Positions 7,658 through 64,000 of a stretch of DNA of 64,000 bases are shown one piece after another. The stretch is from Microbotryomycetes sp. JL201 (taxonomy: Eukaryota; Basidiomycota; Microbotryomycetes). Each line of letters starts with the position of its first letter. Position 1 is the stretch's first letter. The stretch is from NCBI GenBank assembly GCA_033819885.1, contig JAQYUZ010000028.1, positions 154,853 to 218,852 on the forward strand, given 5' to 3'. The translations under genes were made by a program, and so were the position numbers. Below the pieces are notes generated by a model. The model was not told the origin of the DNA. It did no database searches and was given only the letters and a program-made list of their open reading frames with translations.

Positions 7658-7902
7658 TAGACCGAAAGAAAAACATACGATGACATCTGCTTAGAGCTTG
7701 TAGAAATCACGTAAGGTCTACTGGACTACAGTCATCTCGCACGGAGTCTAGCAATTTATGACTTCTTCTGACTGCACTTTGTCTGCGCCGACGGTTGAGA
7801 GGCAGGCCTCGGAGTCGACACCAAAAAGGTAGGGCAATCTAGGAGACAAAAGGGATTCCGCTGGTCGCGCGGATCAGACCAACCACAAAAAGAAACGAGA
7901 TG
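7658..7902. promoter_or_regulatory. Upstream region of the mL59 gene
   Basis: This gap lies between the mL59 start and the tRNA gene and should contain the mL59 promoter. I see no clear TATA box or other defined motif. Confidence 0.3.
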
Positions 7903-7991
7903 GGCCCTTGCCCGGGATCGAACCGGGGACCTCACCCAAATAAGATTGACGAAAACCCTAAGGGTGAATCATACCACTAGACCACAAGGGC
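7903..7991 (-). tRNA. tRNA-Pro (AGG) with an intron
   Basis: The minus strand folds as a cloverleaf. The 5' acceptor strand GCCCTTG pairs with CAAGGGC at the 3' end. The D-arm region GTGGTCTAGTGGTAT is the usual A box of tRNA-Pro. The anticodon stem CACCC/GGGTG encloses loop TTAGGG-T with anticodon AGG, and the T arm carries GGTTCGATCCC. An intron of about 17 nt sits after position 37, the standard place for tRNA introns. No CCA is encoded, as expected in eukaryotes. Confidence 0.93.
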
Positions 7992-8509: not shown

Positions 8510-11500
8510 TCATCTGATACGCATCCATCTCCCTCCGCAATACAAGCAGCAGGTAGCCGCCCTCAAGATCGCGTCCACTACACCGCCGTTGTCGGGCTCG
8601 TCCGCGCCACTTTTCTGAACAGCATGTAGCCGGCCGAGCGCTTTGCGCTCGCAAGAGACGCACGTGCGAACGTCCGTAGAGGAAATGACAGAAAAGGTGA
8701 TCGAGCAGCGTTCTGAGCAGCCGTTGAAAAGAAGGTGAGCTGACTCCGGTATGCAATGATGGACAGACAACATTGCTTACCCCACTTGTGCCCATTGACG
8801 CAACTGGCGTCGCGAATGTTGACTAGTGGTACAGACGCAGAGCAAGCGGGGCAGGATTCGTCCTGATTAAACGCCGATACCAGAGCGTCTGGAGGTAGCA
8901 GCATCACGTCTGCCGGATCGACAGGCGGCAGAGACGCCGACGCGAGCGAAATTCGACCAAGGATGGCCAGTTCTCGCGCTAGTTGCGCCAGTCATCAGCG
9001 GGCGGATGTCAGTGCACGAGACCAGCTCACCTTGCAGATGCCCTGAAGCCCGAGAAAGTACCCCCGCAAGACGTAAAGCAATCTCTCTCGCAATCCTGCG
9101 AGCAATGATTGTATGAACGATCAGAATCTGATGTTGGCAATCTTGCGCCAGATGAGGGTGGCGCTGCAGATCTGTCAGCCGGTGCATCAGCTGATCGACA
9201 TACTCCACCCACCATTGCAAAGCGCACAAGCGTTTCTCTGACGCGAAGGTGCTCGATGGTGGCGTCACGCATTAGCACGTCGCAAAATGCTGCTGCAACG
9301 CTCTCGGGAGACTTGATAGGATCTTGAGCAGCCGCGGGTACGTCCAATTCCATTGCATCGGAGAGTGAGCAGATAAAATCGACTGTCTCTCGGTTGGCAA
9401 TGTCTTGATTTAGAATGTGGAGCGGAAGTAGCACTCTTCGCGCTACAGCCGCGTGATCTGTTCGGCAACAATCATTCTGCGGTGGTCTATCATTGACGAG
9501 CAATGCTCTCACCTTTGGCTGAACCACTCAATTCACTCAAGATGGAGTCGACGCTAGAGCGCAGCGCATTGCTGCCTGAGCTGGTCGTGGCAAGTTGCGC
9601 AACGACAAGGATGGACGCGGTTGACGCATTTGTCTGGTACAAAATAGACGTGGGTCGTGCCACTCTGCAAAGGTCCACAGGCCGTTAATAGAGCGTAGCG
9701 AGCACCGTGCAAACGTTCACGGACGAGTAGTGCCATGCTACGATTTCACCCGCTTGAAGGTCGGCAAATCCGCCGACGCAAGGCCCTTCTCGGATTCTAG
9801 CATTCGTCATATTTTGATCAGCCTTTACGGCAGAAGACGCCGGACGCGACTGCTCGAATATGCTGAGAGCTCTTTCGCTTAAGAGCCTCGTTGATTCAGC
9901 CCCGTCCTCGGTTCGAATCAGGCGCGGTCTCTCTCCTAGAGCGATGACATGAATAGACCCTTCTTCAAGCGCAACCCAAAGCTGATCGCGTGCCGCAGAC
10001 AATGCCAGACCTGCCGATGGTGGTCAGTGAAGATCTTTGCAATCCGTGCTGGCAGCTTACCCGAACATGTGGCGTAGGCCGATGAGCCCATCCAGATCCT
10101 CTCCGTCTCCAGCTCGATTTGCTCGTTGCTATTCATCTCAAAGTTGGATGCCCCTTCGTCGGTACTGGACATCGTCACAATGTTCACGACTCCGAGCTTG
10201 GTGTACGCCAGCCGCGGCTAGAGAAAAAAATCAGAATCTCCGCAAACTATACATCTTTGTTGCTGCGTACCTGAAGCTCTGCGCCAAACCATAGTAACCG
10301 AGTTACCGGTCGACTATCTGGTCGACATAGTAAGCGAGGATTCAACGTCGAGACTCCGGCAGCGGCCGGTCCTTGAGCAGGGTTCTTCGAGGCATCAACA
10401 GTGAGCAGCGTGTGCGAAAAGGGTACATCCTGCGAGACCTCGATGGACCATACGTTGCCCTGGGCATCGCCTACCGCCAAGAGAGCCACGGCTAGCCGTC
10501 GATCTTCTGCGCGCTCAATCAGCACGATATACGCCCTGCCGACTCATATCATATTCACCAGCGCTTTGCACGATGTGCCACCTAGACCAAGCGACGTTGA
10601 CAATGGATCCCGCTTTCTCGTCGACACGGTGGCGCTGCATGATTTCCATTCCCCGACTATTTCTCCTGATGAGCACCAATTGTGATCAGAGCAGAAGTTG
10701 TGACCGCCTGAGTGTCGCCGAGCTCACCTCCAGAGCGCAATGTGGCCGCTGCGGTACCCTACGGCAAGAATTGACCAGTCGCCGTGCGCATCATGAACTG
10801 CTTCAGACCAGGCGACCGCTGTGCAAGCGTGTCAATAACCATCTCATCATATCATCGCATCGGCACGTACACATAGCTTGGCATTCGAGCACCCTGGCAA
10901 CCACGACGAGCCGCTCTTGAAGGGTGTACACGCGGTTCTCGGCAAAGTTCTCGTCTGCGACGAACGCCGTGTCAATAAAATCTAAGTTGCCCACGTTGCA
11001 CTCCCGGTGACTAACCAGGTAGCGCGATCCTGATCAAATGGCTGGTGAGATCGTACGTCTTCGCAGACTACGCGTTAGACAGTGTCATCGGTCTGGGTCA
11101 CACAGGCTTACCTCTGACCATTCGCCTTTGTGAGAATTCTTGCTCGGTTCGAACAAGAGGACCTCGCAATTATTTGTGAGCGTGGCGAGAACGCATCTGT
11201 CGATGAGGTCCTTCAACTGAAGATCACTTTTTGGCGATGTGCAGCGCAGTGCCTACCCTCCAAGGAGCCCGATACCTGACGGTGACCATGAAGCCGACTG
11301 CCAGAAAGGTTCAGCCATACCGGGTGTGGCCACCTGCATTTCTGTGGCGAGAGCAAGTCCGGATCAGAGCCAGCGTCACATCGCCACAGCGCATCATCAG
11401 CCGACTTGCCATTGACCCATTCGGCCCACAAGACAATTTCCTTCTTCTCTATGGGCAGAATTGACCTGAACAGCGGAATCATGCGCTCGCGATCGACTGG

Positions 11501-56559: not shown

Positions 56560-57741
56560 CTAGTTAGCCTGATTTCTGAACGTCTGGTCCCGGATGTCAC
56601 GACTTGCAAATGCCCGTGCCTCGATCAGTTGTTCGGCGCGCTGAAATTCTCGCTCCGTTGCCGCGCGCGATCCGAACCTCTCGTACAGAGTCTCGATGGG
56701 ATATACTGTCAGTGCACTAGTACCGAGGTCCGCGATATCGTCGACGTCCCCGTTACCGCGGGCAAACTGGCCCTGAACGTTGAGCTGATCAAAGAAGAAA
56801 TTGAAGTCACTAGCACGCAGGTTCTGTGCCCAATGTGCGGCGATACGGTCAGAAACCCCAGGGTGCAGTTGCCTTTCTTCCGGCACGGTTTTTGTCGAGT
56901 GTCGTCCTGCGGCCGTTCCAGGGTTCTTGTAAAACTTGTGCCCGTCTGCAACGACATGCATGAGCTTGATCGCAGCTTTGCGCCGTGCCTCGGGAATCGA
57001 GTTCAAGGGGGGCAACAATTGAAGCAATGAAACCGAAAAAGTAGTTCGTCGGGCTCGCTTGACGAGCACCTCCAAGTTTCGCGAAGGCCAATCTTGCCGT
57101 CGCACCAGGCGATAGATACTCCGATCCAACCTTTTCTTTTCCTCCCTCGACAGCTGATGAAATACGGTCCAACCCATGCGGTACTCTGCAGCAGGTACAC
57201 GAAAAGCCGACAAGTGCCAGCCCTGCAGGCGTTCTGGGTCATGTCGCGTACGATACAGGTAGTAGCGGAGCGTCGCAAAAATTGACGCCGAAGTGGAAAT
57301 AATATCGAGCGCTAGTAGCAAGAGCTCGTTCGTGCAAAGTCTCCAAGCAGCTGATGTACGAGGCTCACCTCTTGCCGGATCGTAGCTGGCGCCTAGATGG
57401 TGAACCATGTCCAAAACGTCGACCCCGAGGTCGACATTTGCATTCACTACGACCGGCCTCGAGTGGTTTGGCAGCAAAATCATTTGCTTGTTCTCGGCGT
57501 CGATAATCTGAACAGCCTGGGGTGTATGCAGGCGAAACACCCACAGGATGGCTGGGAGTTCCAGTCCGAAGAGCACTCTCATGACAAAGTTGGCAATCTC
57601 GACGCTTTTTGGCATGGCGCGGGAACGGGCAGCAACAGAAAGCAAAGAAGCAGCGCCTGGAAAAATGTGCATGGATGCGGCATTCTTCTGAAGGTGGGGA
57701 GACCGTTTGACTCCTATGGCAGCACAGCACCTTGTCATCAA
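56560..57741 (-). CDS. Single-frame protein of unknown function
   Basis: A 393-codon open frame without obligatory introns. I cannot name it. The N-terminal third has a hydrophobic segment (VMRVLFGLELPAILWVF) and ILLPNHSRPVVVNANVDLGV. A GTGAGC donor after DPARG and an in-frame CTGCAG about 144 nt downstream allow an intron. The middle is basic and helical (QLSREEKKRLDRSIYRLVRR, EVLVKRARRTTFSVSLLQLL). The last third has AIKLMHVVADGHKFYKNPG, RIAAHWAQNLRASDFNFFFD and AEQLIEARAFASRDIRDQ. It could belong to the accessory segment with the nucleases that follow. The start could be any of several Met codons between 57615 and 57741. Confidence 0.5.
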   Translation of the reverse strand: MMTRCCAAIGVKRSPHLQKNAASMHIFPGAASLLSVAARSRAMPKSVEIANFVMRVLFGLELPAILWVFRLHTPQAVQIIDAENKQMILLPNHSRPVVVNANVDLGVDVLDMVHHLGASYDPARGEPRTSAAWRLCTNELLLLALDIISTSASIFATLRYYLYRTRHDPERLQGWHLSAFRVPAAEYRMGWTVFHQLSREEKKRLDRSIYRLVRRQDWPSRNLEVLVKRARRTTFSVSLLQLLPPLNSIPEARRKAAIKLMHVVADGHKFYKNPGTAAGRHSTKTVPEERQLHPGVSDRIAAHWAQNLRASDFNFFFDQLNVQGQFARGNGDVDDIADLGTSALTVYPIETLYERFGSRAATEREFQRAEQLIEARAFASRDIRDQTFRNQAN

Positions 57742-58220
57742 CAGACTCCTGACATTCGCGCACAGCAGTCATCTTGCTGGACGGACGGTATACGTACTTG
57801 AGCTCGCTCAGGCTGGATCAGACACATATGTGCCCAATGCAATATTCATGCTCGGCGCACGGCAGCATACTTTTCCAGCACCACAAGCCCGTGAAAAAAG
57901 CAGTGATTTCTCACGGGATGGCACCAGCACGGCAATGCAACGCGCTCGACCAGTTATTCTGCTGTCGAGTTTACCCTGCATCTGATTGGACTGCTCGGCA
58001 AGTGTGAAGTAGTCCCATAGGAGCTTTTCTCAAAGTCCGAGGGAAAAAAGACGAACGCTTGAGGCAGTGCCGCCGCCGTTAGAAAACGCTTTCTTTCCTA
58101 CACGCACGCTTGAGAGAGCTATCTACATCTCCATCAAGGACTTCTGTACGCTTTGTCAAAGCTGTTGCCACGCCAAACTCTCGATCGCCCCAAGGAAACT
58201 GCTGAACAGCGCCTCTGACT
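57742..58220. other. Divergent gap upstream of the FEN1-like gene, with a hairpin
   Basis: 479 bp that should contain the promoter of the FEN1-like gene. An exact inverted repeat CCCGTGA (57888-57894) / TCACGGG (57911-57917) with a 16-nt loop lies here. I compared this region by eye with the right end of the window and found no matching terminal repeat. Confidence 0.4.
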
Positions 58221-61200
58221 ATGGGCGTCAAAGGCATTATCAAAATGTTCTTTCAATTTTCCGAGCGGGTCGACATCCCGATACCTGCGCGGGACCTCGA
58301 CACTCCTATCCAAGAAATACTAATGGAGCACTTGGATTGGCGGCACGAGCAAGATCGAACCAAGCTCGCCGCAGGCACGAGTATGTTTCGTGCTGTCTAT
58401 CTGTTCCGGACTAGCAACTGATCCGTCCAACCCTAAAAGCTCTTGTATACGAGTGTGGAGCCGGCAAGCGTGATATCTGGGACGCCGCGATGAGGTCCGT
58501 GCCCCGACCGCGCAAGCTCGACGGCCTCACCCGAACCGGTCCAGGTCAACACGAGACGGACGCTCGACTGAGCCTGGACGAAGCGGGGCGCACGTACACT
58601 AATTTGATGAGGTCCTTCGGGCGCAAGATCAAAACAATGCTCGATAACTTCAGCCTCAACCCTAACGACGTATCGTTGAGAATGGCTCACGACGGCCCTC
58701 TGCGCTCGCCACTCAAGCTCGAAGAGATGACCCGTCGCGCCCGGGCTGCCGAAGAACGTGCGGTACGTCAAGCAGGTCGTGATCAGACGCCTTTGAACGC
58801 TTGGCACACAATCGCTCGGCTCCAAGGCGCCGTCGTCTTCGGATGGGAGCAAGGGGATGGCCCCATCCATATCGTCCCGCATAACGAAGGTGACCTCGCG
58901 CTGTATGCGCACCTTCGCCGTCTCCGTGCCCAGAACATTCCAGCGTCCCAAATCGCCATGTGGATTGGCGAGTCTGACCAGCTCGTTTTCGTCGACCCGG
59001 CGGACTGTCGGTGGGCTCTATTGGCGTATCGCAAAACAGCCTCGTCGCCAAAGATGGTATACGTCCTGGACTTGGAAGCCATCTGTGGCCATCCGGAGTG
59101 GCCCTTCGCCTCGCATCAGCAACTCTGCGCCGCGGCAACCTTAGTAGGGCATGACTACTTTAAGGGTGTTCAAGGCATCGGCATGACAACAGCGCAGCGC
59201 CCCGCAGGACTCGCTTTAGCCGACGCCCTTGTTGCAGCTGACGTCGACGCTGCTGTGCGAATGTTCGCCGATTTGAGGGACAAAGACATGCAACGCTGCC
59301 ATCGGCTCGACGAGCGCTCGCCAGAGGTAAAAGCCCGCGAAGTCATACAAGCCTTTCAGGCTACAATGCAACTTGTGACTGGCGCAGATCAGAGAGCAGT
59401 CGTCGTTCAACGAGGCGAGCTCGCTGTTGGCCACGTAAGGCTAGCTTCAGACGAATTAGTGCTCCGGAACCCTGTCGTCCCAGGCTTGCAGCCAATCGTC
59501 CGTGGACAAGTCGCCGAGGAAGCGCAACGTTTCACCTTTGGTGGCCCAGCGGCAACAGTCAACACGTTCCGCCACGCGCGCTCAAAGGTCCAGGAAAGCC
59601 TCGTCGAAGGTGGTATCGTCGCGCGCACGTTCCGCCGTCGGCCGCCGGCGCCTGCAAATGACGAGGAAGGCATAGCCCGTCGCAGGGCGGCGCAACCTCC
59701 TCGAGCCGCTCGTCTAGCCGGCGTCCGTGGACGACTGCAGGACGTCCTCGAGTCCGAAAGCGATGACGACCTTCCCAGCAACGTCGACAGGCTGCCACGC
59801 GCCAAAATCACAAGTACGCTGCTTCTCGTCGGAAAGAAGGCGCTTGCACACGGCGCTCTCCACACACTGTCCGAGGAAGAAGGTGAGTAACATTAACCGC
59901 ACATGACAGCTAACGTGGACTGACTGTTCTCCTACGTAATCAGTCAATCAGCCGGCAGGTCGTCGCTCGGCATTAGAGGCCATGTTCGAATTCCTGCGAG
60001 AAACATTTGCATTCGCTCTAGGTCAAGCTTTGACGGCAGTCCTCACAGAAGTTCGCAATGTTTTAGCCGCGCCAGAGTACAATCTCACCATGTACCATCA
60101 TCGATGGACCAGCCCTGCTCGGCTGAGACAACTTATCAGTGCTGTACTCTGCCTGCTTGGCACTGCAGACGACCTGCAGAAGCTGAACGCCACCGAGGAG
60201 CGCATGCCTCGCCAGTGGCTATCATGGCACTGGTCTTTAGAGCCAGGTCGCATCCTCGAGCGCGCCGAGATGGAACGGTATTGGAGAGGGCTATCTCACG
60301 CAGAACAAAGTTTTTTGGCCGGAACAAGTCTCGTGAGTCTGGCTCTGTATGCTAGTCTTGTGCTGCTTCTGACCAAATTTTAACAGTCGGACTATGTCGT
60401 AGCTCGGGCCGTTCTCATCGTCATCCGTCGCGGCAAGTCGCTGCCTCGCGTGCCAAACCTGACGTCGCACTTGGACGAAGTGTCTGCAGTGAGCGCAACG
60501 GCAATCATCAACGCTACCAAGACAAACGCAATCGAGTGTATCAAGAAGTACGCCGCAATGTTCACGGAAATGGCCGGTTACGAAGCCCTCTCGGCCAACG
60601 AGCGCAAAGCTCTCAAGGACTTGTACTACAAAGTCATAGTCAACTCGCCACTGTCGACGGTTGGCGCTGCGCGCGCTCCTCAGATTTTGAACGAACACAT
60701 TCAGGCTCTCGGAGAGTTGAACCTCGGCGACATTTTCGAGAACGAGGTGCTGGCAACCATGGAAGCCTTGATCGACGAGCTGAATCAGCATGTGCTCACT
60801 CCAGTCAAACCAAACCCAGAAAAAGCATCCTTTCAGGCGGACCCTCGTCAGCAATTGGGCTCTTTTGCTGCAGGCCGAGACGGCAAGACGTTCGAAAGCC
60901 TCTTGAAGACATCTCCGGGTTGTTTGATGTCCTATCTCCATTTCGTCAAATCACAAGTTCAACGTCACCATTGGTTGAACGAACAGCGTCAAGGTCGGAT
61001 GCTCGAGCGTTTGCCCCTGGACGGCATAGTCGCCGTAAGTTTGATAACATCCTGTGACGCGTCGGGTTGCTGAATGCGGAAGAACGCAGAATTTCAAATG
61101 GCAGAGCCAACCATTCAATCTTCAACGGTTGACCGCGGTTCTTATCGATCCCGTCGCCCATGCTGAAGCGTGCCTCGTGTGGCAAGTTGACAATATTTTG

Positions 61201-61956
61201 CCGGTGATCCAAGACGTTTGGCAACGTCTGCTCGCAAGGATCGATCCCGATGGATTGCAAACCCGGGAACAAAAGATCGATCTCCTCAAAAATGAGCCGT
61301 TCCTGCGTCAGTTTGGCAGCCTCTCGTCATCATTCGTTGTCGAGCACGTCTTGGAAAATACGTGGCTCGACGTCGTCGAGGAACGCGTCGAACCTCGTCT
61401 CTCTTCTCTTTTCGTACGCTTGATCAATGCTGTGGTGCGCTCACTCGACAACACGTTCCCGCACATCACGCAGAGCGAGTTGGACCTTCGCGAAGCCAAG
61501 CTCGTGCGTGGCAAGGACTTTAAGAACAGCGGCAGGAGAGGTGCGAGCGAGGGACTCGACACTAGAACGGATGAATACGGTCGCCAAGTTCAGAGCTTGC
61601 GAGGCGGCGTAAAGCGATTCCAAGGCTATGGACTGGCTTTGGCTGCGCTGCTCGGCCGAGCCCGCATGGACCATCACTTGCCCTATCCGAGGTTCATCTT
61701 TTGTCCAGGTCATACAGTCACCTTTCTTTTGAAGGCCAGCCGGGTACATCTTACAGAGCGCACTCGTGAGATCGTCGGACGTACAAAAAGCGTCGAAGGA
61801 CTGGTCACGGCGCTGCTGTTGCGTACCGAGATGACGGCGGCAAGTCGTCTCAAGGCCGATTGTCTTGGACCTCTAGTTGTATATGAGCGTCAAGAAGCGC
61901 CACGGGAAGGATTGAACGCAGAAGAAGTCCCAATGGACGTTGACGAGGCCGGTTGA
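58221..61956 (+). CDS. FEN1/XPG-type nuclease fused to a long uncharacterised helical region
   Basis: Probable structure-specific 5' nuclease with a novel tail. Five exons (58221-58380, 58440-59882, 59944-60332, 60387-61034, 61090-61956) give 1168 aa in one frame. It starts MGVKGIIK like FEN1/XPG. It follows the FEN1 order of acidic motifs: HDGPLRSPLKLEEM (like FDGKPP), PHNEGDLALYAHLRRL (like SEAEASCAAL), WIGESDQLVF (like TEDMDCLTF) and LVGHDYFKGVQGIGMTTA (like LLGSDYCESIRGIGPKRA, the helix-two-turn-helix). Some metal ligands differ: EAE is EGD and EDMD is ESD. Residues after about 500 include an Arg/acidic linker and 600 helical residues (for example KALKDLYYKVIVNSPLST, FVVEHVLENTWLDVVEERVE) that I cannot assign. 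It lies 229 bp upstream of the Fanzor-like gene on the same strand. Confidence 0.72.
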
Positions 61957-62185
61957 GCGCCTGGACGATCAGTAAACTTTGTAATCCATCTTGCTGTACA
62001 TGTTCTCGTATAAAGCAGCTACCAAACACTGTGGCCGTCATAGACATTTTGAGCACGCTCGACAGACAAGGTCGCGTGCTTGACATGGCGAGGCAGTGCA
62101 TGCCATCGGTCAGGAGGCTTTTGCTCTGAGCCCAACTCTCGTCCGCGGGCACTCTTGCGCTCCTTCTGTAACCTTGTCACGAGCG
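61957..62185. promoter_or_regulatory. Gap between the two nuclease genes
   Basis: 229 bp that must hold the end of the FEN1-like transcript and the promoter of the Fanzor-like gene. The plus strand has stops in all frames near 62010. No motif recognised. Confidence 0.35.
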
Positions 62186-63733
62186 ATGGATGACCATCAT
62201 GACCACCTCCGGAATGGAGTGACAGCAGAACGTAAAATTCTCCCGCCACCTGTCGACCTCAAAGCGCGTATGATCGCAAAGAAGAACGGTCTCGGCGACC
62301 GGGCGGAGCTGTCGACCTACTTGCACATGAGACTGGCGCGTTCGAGGACGTGGACTGGCTCGCCTTTCAGCGCAAAGAATCAGAGTCGCTACCGGTTGAC
62401 ATTGAGAATCTGGGTCCCAACCGCGACGCAACCTTGCGGCAGCTGACGAAAGCCGTGTGGGATTGCTGGATGCGTGGCGGTTTGCGGGCTCGAGTGGAGA
62501 CGCTCACTTGCGAGGATCAGTCGGGGGACCCTGTACGTTGATGCTCTAGACATCTAGCATTATTATTGCCTGACATTGTTTGAATATAGTACAATATTCG
62601 AATGCAGCGCCACTTGCCCGTCGATCCTGCCATCTTTGCGCCGGACGACGCTCGTCACGTCTCGCGAACCGTCGATCTGATTGCCATTCTCACCATTGAT
62701 CCGGGCCAGAGATTTCCAATTGCGTGCAATCTCCGAACCCCAAATTTGCAAGGCGTCCTGGTAGAGCGCCAGTTCCTTGTGTCGGAAATGGCCCTCCAAG
62801 AGATCAAGGGCAACGCCACGTCTCAAAGTCAGGAACGACGTCAACTGATTACAAGCGCCTTCGGGGACGGCGAAGGTCCTCCGGCCGACATAGTCGACGT
62901 TGTTGCAGCATCTGGCACGATGGCAAGTGGGCAGAAAGCTATGCGCTTCTTGTCGACGGGTGCACAGCTTGACCGTCTCGTACAAGAAGTCATAGATTTT
63001 GCGGGATTGTTTGGGCACAAGGAGCAGCGCGATGCTGTCAAAGCCAGTTCGCGCACCCGCGTTTTTGACGAAGCAAACCCGGTCACGGCTCGAATGTTTT
63101 ATCCAGAAGTGCCAGCGCCGGTTCTCGTGGCTGTGGGGGATGCAGGCCCCAAAGGCGCCCAAGGCATGTCGATTTTGCGCCGGCTGGTGGACCGGTGTCG
63201 TGGCTCAGGCGCCAGTGTCACCTTTGTACGATTAGACGAGTTTCGGACGTCACAGTTGTGCCCTTTTCCTAGTTGTATGGACGAGCACGGGCGCTCACCT
63301 CGGTCAGTCGATGAAAGTATATCCTATTGAATGAACGCTGACCATGCACGACAGAATGGCACGCGTTCAAAAGCGAGTGGCAGGGGGACCACCGCTGCCC
63401 AATTATCGCTTGTTGCAGTGCCCGCAATGTCGATTTGTCCTCCACCGAGACAAGCTGGCTGCGATGAACATGACCGAGGTGGCCGATCACGTGCTCAGGT
63501 ACAACGAGCACCCCTTCAAGGGCGATGTTGTCCAAGGCGAGGGCGGCGACGCAGACAATGGCAGACACCATGGAGCCCCAGATCAGTTAGGCGGCGGAAA
63601 CGGAGGAGAAGGAGCGGCAATGGACCTTGACGACGCGGACGGACTTGAGGAAGACCTTGAGATGGAAGATGTACTGGAAGACGGCTTCCTTGACGCTGGT
63701 GGCAATATGCACAACCAATTTGGTATCGTATAA
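62186..63733 (+). CDS. Fanzor-like RuvC nuclease (eukaryotic TnpB relative)
   Basis: Candidate RNA-guided DNA endonuclease. Four exons (62186-62231, 62282-62532, 62590-63302, 63355-63733) give 462 aa in one frame. RuvC-I: ILTIDPGQRFPIACN, Asp136. RuvC-II region: VAVGDAGPKGAQG (282-285 GDAG where TnpB has Glu), then the Fanzor-type LDEFRTSQLC with Glu316. Zinc finger: C323, C328 and C359, C362 (CPQC). RuvC-III: HRDKLAAMNM, Asp369. This order, DEFRTS before the finger and RD..AA.NM after it, is the TnpB/Fanzor signature. The displaced Glu is a known feature of Fanzors. The N-terminal 130 residues are short for the family and unrecognised. The C-terminus is a Gly/acidic tail. All key catalytic residues are present. 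Confidence 0.83.
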
Positions 63734-64000
63734 CTCTTCTGTGGCTGCAATGAATCTTGATTTGGCATTGACCTCGTCGTTTGATTCGATGACCGTGAGA
63801 GCCAGTTTTCCAATACCAATGAACAACCGTGTAGCGCGAGATAGATGATCGACCTTGTTGCAATACTAGCCAAACTAACTTGCTGCACGAGATAGATTGA
63901 TGTTTGACGCAGGAAAAGCCCGCGTCGGAACTCGCGTGGCCTAGGGCCCAGTGCCTCTTGTCCTGTTGACGCCTGCTCATGCCGTGTCTTTTAACTATAC
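63734..64000. other. 3' flank of the Fanzor-like gene up to the window edge
   Basis: 267 bp with no convincing protein. In known Fanzor loci the guide (omega) RNA is encoded at or beyond the 3' end of the gene, so this is the first place to look for it. A palindrome-like GGCCTAGGGCCC occurs near 63940-63951. No terminal repeat can be confirmed because the window stops here. Confidence 0.35.

Follow-up and report, generated by a model that had tools for sequence, protein, structure and literature searches.

Organisation of the locus

The window, by which we mean the whole 64,000-nucleotide stretch analysed here, spans the initial 64 kb of contig C21, on the minus strand, in the genome of the basidiomycete fungus Microbotryomycetes sp. 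JL201 (Pucciniomycotina), which is assembled as 17.15 Mb on 92 contigs. Towards its end lies a Fanzor-like frame on the + strand (62186-63733), encoding 465 aa once spliced in our model, preceded on the same strand by a five-exon frame of 1168 aa (58221-61956) which ends 229 bp before it and which went unmentioned in the preliminary description of this DNA (Table 1). Profiling of six other frames in the window assigned three of them, to dihydroorotate dehydrogenase, ubiquitin hydrolase, and an amino-acid permease, with the remaining three lacking any family match. A tRNA-Arg (cct) of 90 bases is called by ARAGORN on the minus strand at 7902-7991, a position at which Rfam at its gathering threshold reports none; this is perhaps a chance call or an intron-bearing tRNA.

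Table 1. Features of the two-frame locus, in window positions. C15 and C26 are contigs that carry relics of the frames.
Feature	Position	Strand	Remarks
5' flank common to the C26 relic	57792..58220	+	similarity begins at ~57792, 430 bp before the start of the FEN-like frame; may mark the left boundary of a repeated unit
FEN1/XPG-like frame, exons	58221-58380, 58440-59882, 59944-60332, 60387-61034, 61090-61956	+	profile, hhalign, dN/dS
Spacer between the frames	61957..62185	+	in the NCBI model, 61952-62281 (coordinates deduced) is spliced out as an intron of 330 nt; its donor is GTTGAG, and it lacks a branch-like site
Possible Fanzor-like exon 1 (MDDHHD...PPPVDLKA)	62186..62267	+	shares PPVDL with the C15 relic; connection to exon 2 doubtful, with no good splice site
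Fanzor-like exon 2 (VDLLAHETG...SGDP)	62309..62532	+	similar to the C15 relic; also in the NCBI model
Intron 2 (GTACGT...TATAG), 57 nt	62533..62589	+	CTGAC at -20
Fanzor-like exon 3	62590..63302	+	RuvC-I, RuvC-II, displaced Glu, first Cys pair CPFPSC
Intron 3 (GTCAGT...GACAG), 52 nt	63303..63354	+	CTGAC at -17
Fanzor-like exon 4	63355..63733	+	second Cys pair CPQC, RuvC-III Asp, Gly/acidic tail, stop
Retrotransposon LTR (core 63839-63997)	63804..64000	+	3' flank, reaching the contig end

Contig C21 (218,852 bases) is a palindrome wherever it was checked, with a centre near 109.4 kb and window 1-64000 forming its left arm. The pieces L026, L029, and L031 are identical to the window at 9853 of 9853, 9148 of 9148, and 9001 of 9001 bases respectively, and the arms at the centre of the contig are 99.94-99.98% identical. 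The palindrome is probably an assembly artefact, and copy counts on C21 are therefore doubled. What appeared to be an intact second copy of the Fanzor-like gene (C21:217442-218158) is not independent, being the mirror arm of this palindrome. No telomere was found at the end of C21, which is absent from the contigs bearing TTAGGG arrays.

Exon structure and catalytic residues of the Fanzor-like frame

Introns 2 and 3 of the Fanzor-like frame look real, and from exon 2 to the stop ~438 codons are open, with no stop between. The candidate for intron 1 (62268-62308) is only 41 nt long, with the acceptor GCGGAG and no branch-like site, although the missing site alone is not decisive, one accepted intron of the upstream frame also lacking it. 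Between PPVDL and VDLLA the window has 50 nt, in place of which the C15 relic has ~16 residues (counted by eye, in one diverged relic), and because of this spacing an exon with a frame break is favoured over an intron. "Intron 1" is thus probably not real, with the sequence there more readily read as a continuous exon broken in frame by an indel or an assembly error. Of the model proposed in the preliminary description (four exons, 462 aa), the position of the frame and introns 2 and 3, with their CTGAC sites, are confirmed, whilst the first intron, with its poor acceptor, is not.

The codons of the RuvC-I Asp (62698-62700, in TIDPGQRF), the displaced Glu (63238-63240, in LDEFRTS), and the RuvC-III Asp (63449-63451, in HRDKL) are all present, corresponding to residues 139, 319, and 372 of the 465-aa model, three above the 136, 316, and 369 given previously. 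The zinc finger, with a first pair spaced C-x4-C and a second pair CxxC, and the Gly/acidic tail were likewise found in the spliced frame as described.

Relationship to Fanzor and TnpB nucleases

The spliced protein passes the profile check against PF07282 (TNB / OrfB zinc ribbon) that had been proposed for it, scoring 31.5 bits against a cut-off of 26.3 (E 2.1e-7), with exon 4 alone falling under the cut-off at 20.1; the NCBI record of the locus also carries PF07282. The NCBIfam TnpB model gives an E value of 0.16 only. An hhalign comparison with two TnpBs reached a score of 56.4 and a probability of 93.7 (maximum score of 20.3 in 100 shuffles) over 75 C-terminal columns only, the score being somewhat flattered since both TnpBs came from tblastn with the same query.

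The order and spacing of the core motifs are far from chance, the signature DPG-x177-E-x6-C-x4-C-x30-CxxC-x6-D being matched, in a loosened form, by none of 200,000 shuffled cores. Fanzors are set apart from TnpBs by a DPG at RuvC-I, described as near exclusive to Fanzors, together with a Glu six residues ahead of the zinc finger (Ealt), a pair reported in <1% of TnpB-family proteins (PMC10711439). Both are seen here, as TIDPGQRF and E-FRTSQL-C. The motif of Bao and Jurka for Fanzors, D-X(125,275)-[TS][TS]-XX-C4 finger-X(5,50)-RD, also describes the protein, in which 182 residues separate D from TS, provided that the first Cys pair is permitted to be C-x2-4-C (criterion from PMC3627910). The search expression given in PMC10711439 (CxxC/CxxC with a spacer of 12-18) does not match, with C-x4-C, a spacer of 30, and 177 residues from DPG to Glu against 120-160; as presented there, that expression was designed to find TnpBs sharing Fanzor features, and we do not take it as absolute.

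The stretch LDEFRTSQLCP aligns with IDEFRTSSFCP of PpFz1 and LLDEYKTSSVCP of SpuFz1, the motif of the latter being LLDEYKTS. The catalytic set reported for SpuFz1 is D383, E541, and D606 (PMC11423790), and we infer E541 to be the Glu found within LLDEYKTS. Over a 65-residue segment, shuffles scored as well in 0 of 2000 cases for PpFz1, 1 of 2000 for SpuFz1, and 3 of 2000 for a Citrobacter TnpB, with the same test not significant for the L79 protein (102 of 2000) or ISDra2 TnpB (209 of 2000). Over the longer segment 1421-1545, the highest score, 83, was that of the Citrobacter TnpB, followed by PpFz1 at 49, SpuFz1 at 46, ISDra2 at 44, and L79 at 40, the Fanzor pieces being shorter. The local DEFRTS motif is thus Fanzor1-like, but these scores do not put the protein closer to Fanzor1 than to TnpB.

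Compared with the Fanzor1 enzymes of known structure (SpuFz1, PDB 8gkh; PpFz1, PDB 9cf0), the protein shares the displaced Glu in DE(F/Y)(R/K)TS, the zinc finger, and the RD of RuvC-III. In contrast, the first Cys pair here is C-x4-C, no overall sequence match was found, a FEN-like frame adjoins, and 138 residues precede the RuvC-I Asp compared with 382 in SpuFz1, as counted from the reported D383 (PMC11423790). PDB searches with the protein, including phmmer, returned no Fanzor. The TDG motif, named in the Fanzor1 WED domain (PMC10711439), is absent throughout the NCBI model of 1614 aa. With TnpBs of IS200/IS605 and IS607 (ISDra2 TnpB, PDB 8bf8), the protein shares a C-terminal zinc ribbon and an RD-xx-AAxN end. 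However, the canonical Glu of TnpB lies ~50 residues ahead of the finger (PMC10711439), whereas the present gene has the alternative Glu, and introns.

The protein could instead be no Fanzor at all, the zinc ribbon of TnpB type belonging to some other protein, or the sequence being contamination with a bacterial TnpB. Profile significance is reached by the C-terminal part only, the Citrobacter TnpB scores well in the segment test, and weak tblastn matches to TnpB or IS605 OrfB occur in one of three plasmid records (E 0.4) and three of seven phage records (E 3), the rest being unrelated. Such an origin is nevertheless very improbable, as DPG, Ealt, and RD follow in the correct order, the introns are of spliceosomal type, DEFRTS is the same as in a solved Fanzor1, and the usual TnpB Glu position, by eye, is without a Glu. 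Membership of the Fanzors in the broad sense we hold with considerable confidence, and the earlier view that this is a divergent Fanzor whose RuvC triad is intact is supported by the PF07282 score, the DPG and displaced Glu, and the Fanzor1-type DEFRTS. Our overall verdict is that the gene represents a new and divergent variant of Fanzor, possibly accompanied by a FEN-like partner.

The upstream FEN1/XPG-like frame

The most unusual part of the locus is the frame upstream. It begins with MGVKGIIK, followed by NEGD (202), GESDQLVF (230), and GHDYFKGVQGIG (290), an order which by eye appears to match that of FEN1/XPG nucleases, and we take its MGVKGI start to be XPG-like. Two of its four introns contain CTGAC and one CTGAT, with no such site in the fourth. 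The likeness to FEN1/XPG lies in GESDQLVF and GHDYFKGVQGIG, which occur in order with the host pieces that we presume to be FEN1, EXO1, and RAD2; an hhalign comparison of residues 211-307 with these pieces gave a score of 37.2 and a probability of 64.5, with 100 shuffles reaching maxima of 24.6 and 5.6. The difference lies in the size, 1168 aa, and in the lack of any match to Pfam XPG (XPG_N / XPG_I), with a genome search for XPG_I listing eight places, this frame not among them. The archaeal FEN1 model of NCBIfam (TIGR03674) scores 14 bits (E 0.02) over residues 278-305, far under its cut-off of 351.95, and the N-terminal part of the FEN-like region does not reach significance by itself (81 of 2000 shuffles). 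We regard the FEN-like core as weak but probably non-random, with modest confidence.

Beyond this core, no solved structure convincingly matched residues 535-1154, and a profile search of the C-terminal half returned nothing. Compared with the relics on C26, the frame has a dN/dS of 0.36 (392 codons) and of 0.50 (510 codons, some counted twice owing to overlapping pieces), with single pieces ranging over 0.14-0.75; given these low ratios, the frame was probably under selection as a protein.

A literature search for a pairing of FEN/XPG with Fanzor found no paper naming such a pair. The phrase "candidate Fanzor flap endonuclease homologs" does occur in a preprint, where it is worded for viral genes (PMC11071296).

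One gene or two

The NCBI protein OIV83_004358, annotated as a "hypothetical protein" of 1614 aa, joins both frames into a single product, which would comprise a FEN1-like domain, a Fanzor WED/REC part, RuvC, and a zinc finger. Besides this annotation, the shared strand, the 229 bp between the frames, and the short stretch before RuvC-I in the Fanzor-like frame alone speak for a fusion. However, the intron needed for the join is 330 nt long against 52-61 nt in the six trusted introns, its donor is GTTGAG, and it has no branch-like site, although this is also true of one of the six. Furthermore, the join removes the PPPVDL stretch that is common to the C15 relic. A fused protein is plausible but less likely than not, and the splice signals make two genes the more likely arrangement. 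A TATAAAG at 62009-62015 in the spacer, ~170 bases ahead of the ATG at 62186, is a candidate promoter of the second frame.

The remark in the preliminary description that the N-terminus is short is accurate for the Fanzor-like frame alone, with its 138 residues before the Asp, and does not carry over to the NCBI model, in which that frame is fused to the upstream one. Fanzor1 N-termini bear helical stretches, which NATKTNAIECIKKY of the upstream frame may resemble, and the C-terminal half of that frame could therefore be the missing WED/REC part. The lack of the WED motif TDG throughout the NCBI model speaks against this. The guide-binding WED/REC part would be either the short, possibly damaged N-terminus or, as we suspect, the upstream C-terminal half, acting fused or in trans. 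A two-nuclease system, in which the Fanzor is physically fused to a FEN1-like flap nuclease or forms with it an obligately split pair, the C-terminal half of that nuclease providing the guide-binding WED/REC part, is rather unlikely.

Relics, relatives, and mobility

Pieces of both frames occur elsewhere in the genome, those of the Fanzor-like frame on C15 and those of the FEN-like frame on C26 and C45, all of them broken. The C15 relic matches the Fanzor-like frame at 44% over 52 residues, 27% over 82, 38% over 42, and 34% over 44, with stops, and as DNA the window stretch scores 188 against it (maximum of 137 in 60 shuffles). The two frames occur together in none of the relic stretches examined, C15 having only the Fanzor-like and C26 and C45 only the FEN-like pieces. 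Spacerless inverted duplications with arms 76-85% identical are present at L032 4861-6987, L033 4094-4303, L058 5207-6404, and C15:247488-247826, those in L032 (C26) and L033 (C45) being made of FEN-like relic sequence; an assembly error is unlikely because the arms are so diverged, and they may represent hairpin loci involved in RNA silencing, or else products of fold-back repair.

The start of similarity to the C26 relic near 57792 hints at a mobile unit, the right end of which may lie beyond the contig. Neither a transposase nor terminal repeats were found, with 11 inverted pairs in 57500-64000, none convincing. The neighbouring frame at the left edge of the unit (56563-57768, minus strand, 402 aa) was considered as a transposase and rejected, having no Pfam domain; apart from its palindrome copy, the genome contains a single, weak match to it, of 82 residues at 36%.

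Searches of ~5.8 billion proteins found no other relative, with 0 of 8000, 1 of 8000 (the protein itself), and 1 of 2346 (the protein itself) retrieved among the candidates scored; these searches need shared 5-residue words and a similar size, so distant relatives may escape, and the length limits of the first exclude even the 1614-aa record. No viral relative was found in IMG/VR by protein or by two motif patterns. An E-x6-zinc-D motif was found nowhere in the unspliced six frames of the window, a search that also misses the gene itself, in which the motif is split by intron 3. A match on C67, presumably a myosin by its motif, was taken as chance.

The 3' flank

LTR sequence starts ~70-105 bp after the stop of the Fanzor-like frame. 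The final 160-200 bases of the window recur at five other places and in one partial copy, with a common right edge. Ghost guide-RNA loci have been described for SpuFz1 (PMC10432273). The repeated tail was considered as such a ghost omega-RNA or as a transposon right end and rejected, as it is an LTR, two 97% identical copies of which flank a 1754-aa frame on C15. This retrotransposon (C15:241118-246836, L056/L057) has 187-bp repeats, and the first 1553 residues of its open frame match RVT_2 (reverse transcriptase, by a wide margin), SH3_retrovirus, and Pol_BBD over their cut-offs, with integrase and GAG-pre-integrase below theirs; RVT_2 marks the element as Copia type. Relatives of the LTR are present on C22, C48, and C67, as well as at the window end.

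For a guide RNA at the 3' end, Rfam gave no match and three folds had unremarkable z values of 0.35, 0.10, and 0.48 against shuffles, the last being that of the LTR tail. A guide RNA, if one exists, would lie within the coding end or have been cut off by the LTR.

State of this copy and proposed activity

The preliminary description considered the lineage active or recently active, a view that the doubtful N-terminal frame, the origin of the extra copy in a palindrome arm, the broken relics, the LTR in the 3' flank, and the lack of a visible guide RNA do not favour. This copy may instead be dead, a decayed Fanzor element whose catalytic core survives by chance, with the reading frame of its N-terminus broken and the guide region at its 3' end lost or replaced by an LTR. 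The doubtful intron 1 and the relic spacing, the LTR shortly after the stop, and the broken state of the pieces at the other places found in the genome are all consistent with such decay. However, this copy retains all three catalytic residues, the four Cys, and two good introns, with the long open frame uninterrupted, and the frame break would also be explained by an indel error at the end of a palindromic contig. Decay is accordingly a serious contender, somewhat short of an even chance, and whether this copy encodes a functional enzyme we judge to be about evenly balanced.

We interpret the locus, with a probability of about 0.6, as part of a highly divergent nuclease of Fanzor1 type, namely its RuvC and zinc-finger (NUC) half, placed head-to-tail behind a FEN1/XPG-like frame, the two probably forming one unit of mobile origin. 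On this interpretation, the protein would bind a non-coding RNA that derives from its own element, at the 3' end, and, so bound, would open matching DNA, with a single RuvC site formed by the Asp of DPG, the displaced Glu of DEFRTS, and the Asp of HRD predicted to cut it. Such cutting would favour the spread or retention of the element, and the FEN-like partner could trim flaps or branched DNA in the ensuing repair. The motifs and profile match, the splice signals at introns 2 and 3, the adjoining FEN-like frame with its low dN/dS against relics, and the relics themselves are observed; guidance by RNA, cleavage, any cooperation between the frames, and mobility are inferred, and that the Fanzor-like protein cooperates with, or is fused to, the FEN-like one is plausible yet tentative.

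Fanzors are eukaryotic RNA-guided nucleases whose natural role is described as unknown (PMC10432273), and none of the papers searched linked Fanzor with basidiomycetes. The present gene would widen the known range of Fanzor N-terminal layouts, and, if the two-nuclease reading is true, a single mobile unit would supply both the RNA-guided cut and the processing of flaps. A lineage with hardly any detectable relatives, adjoining a frame that resembles a flap nuclease, would offer a concrete hypothesis on the role of Fanzors in transposition or repair.
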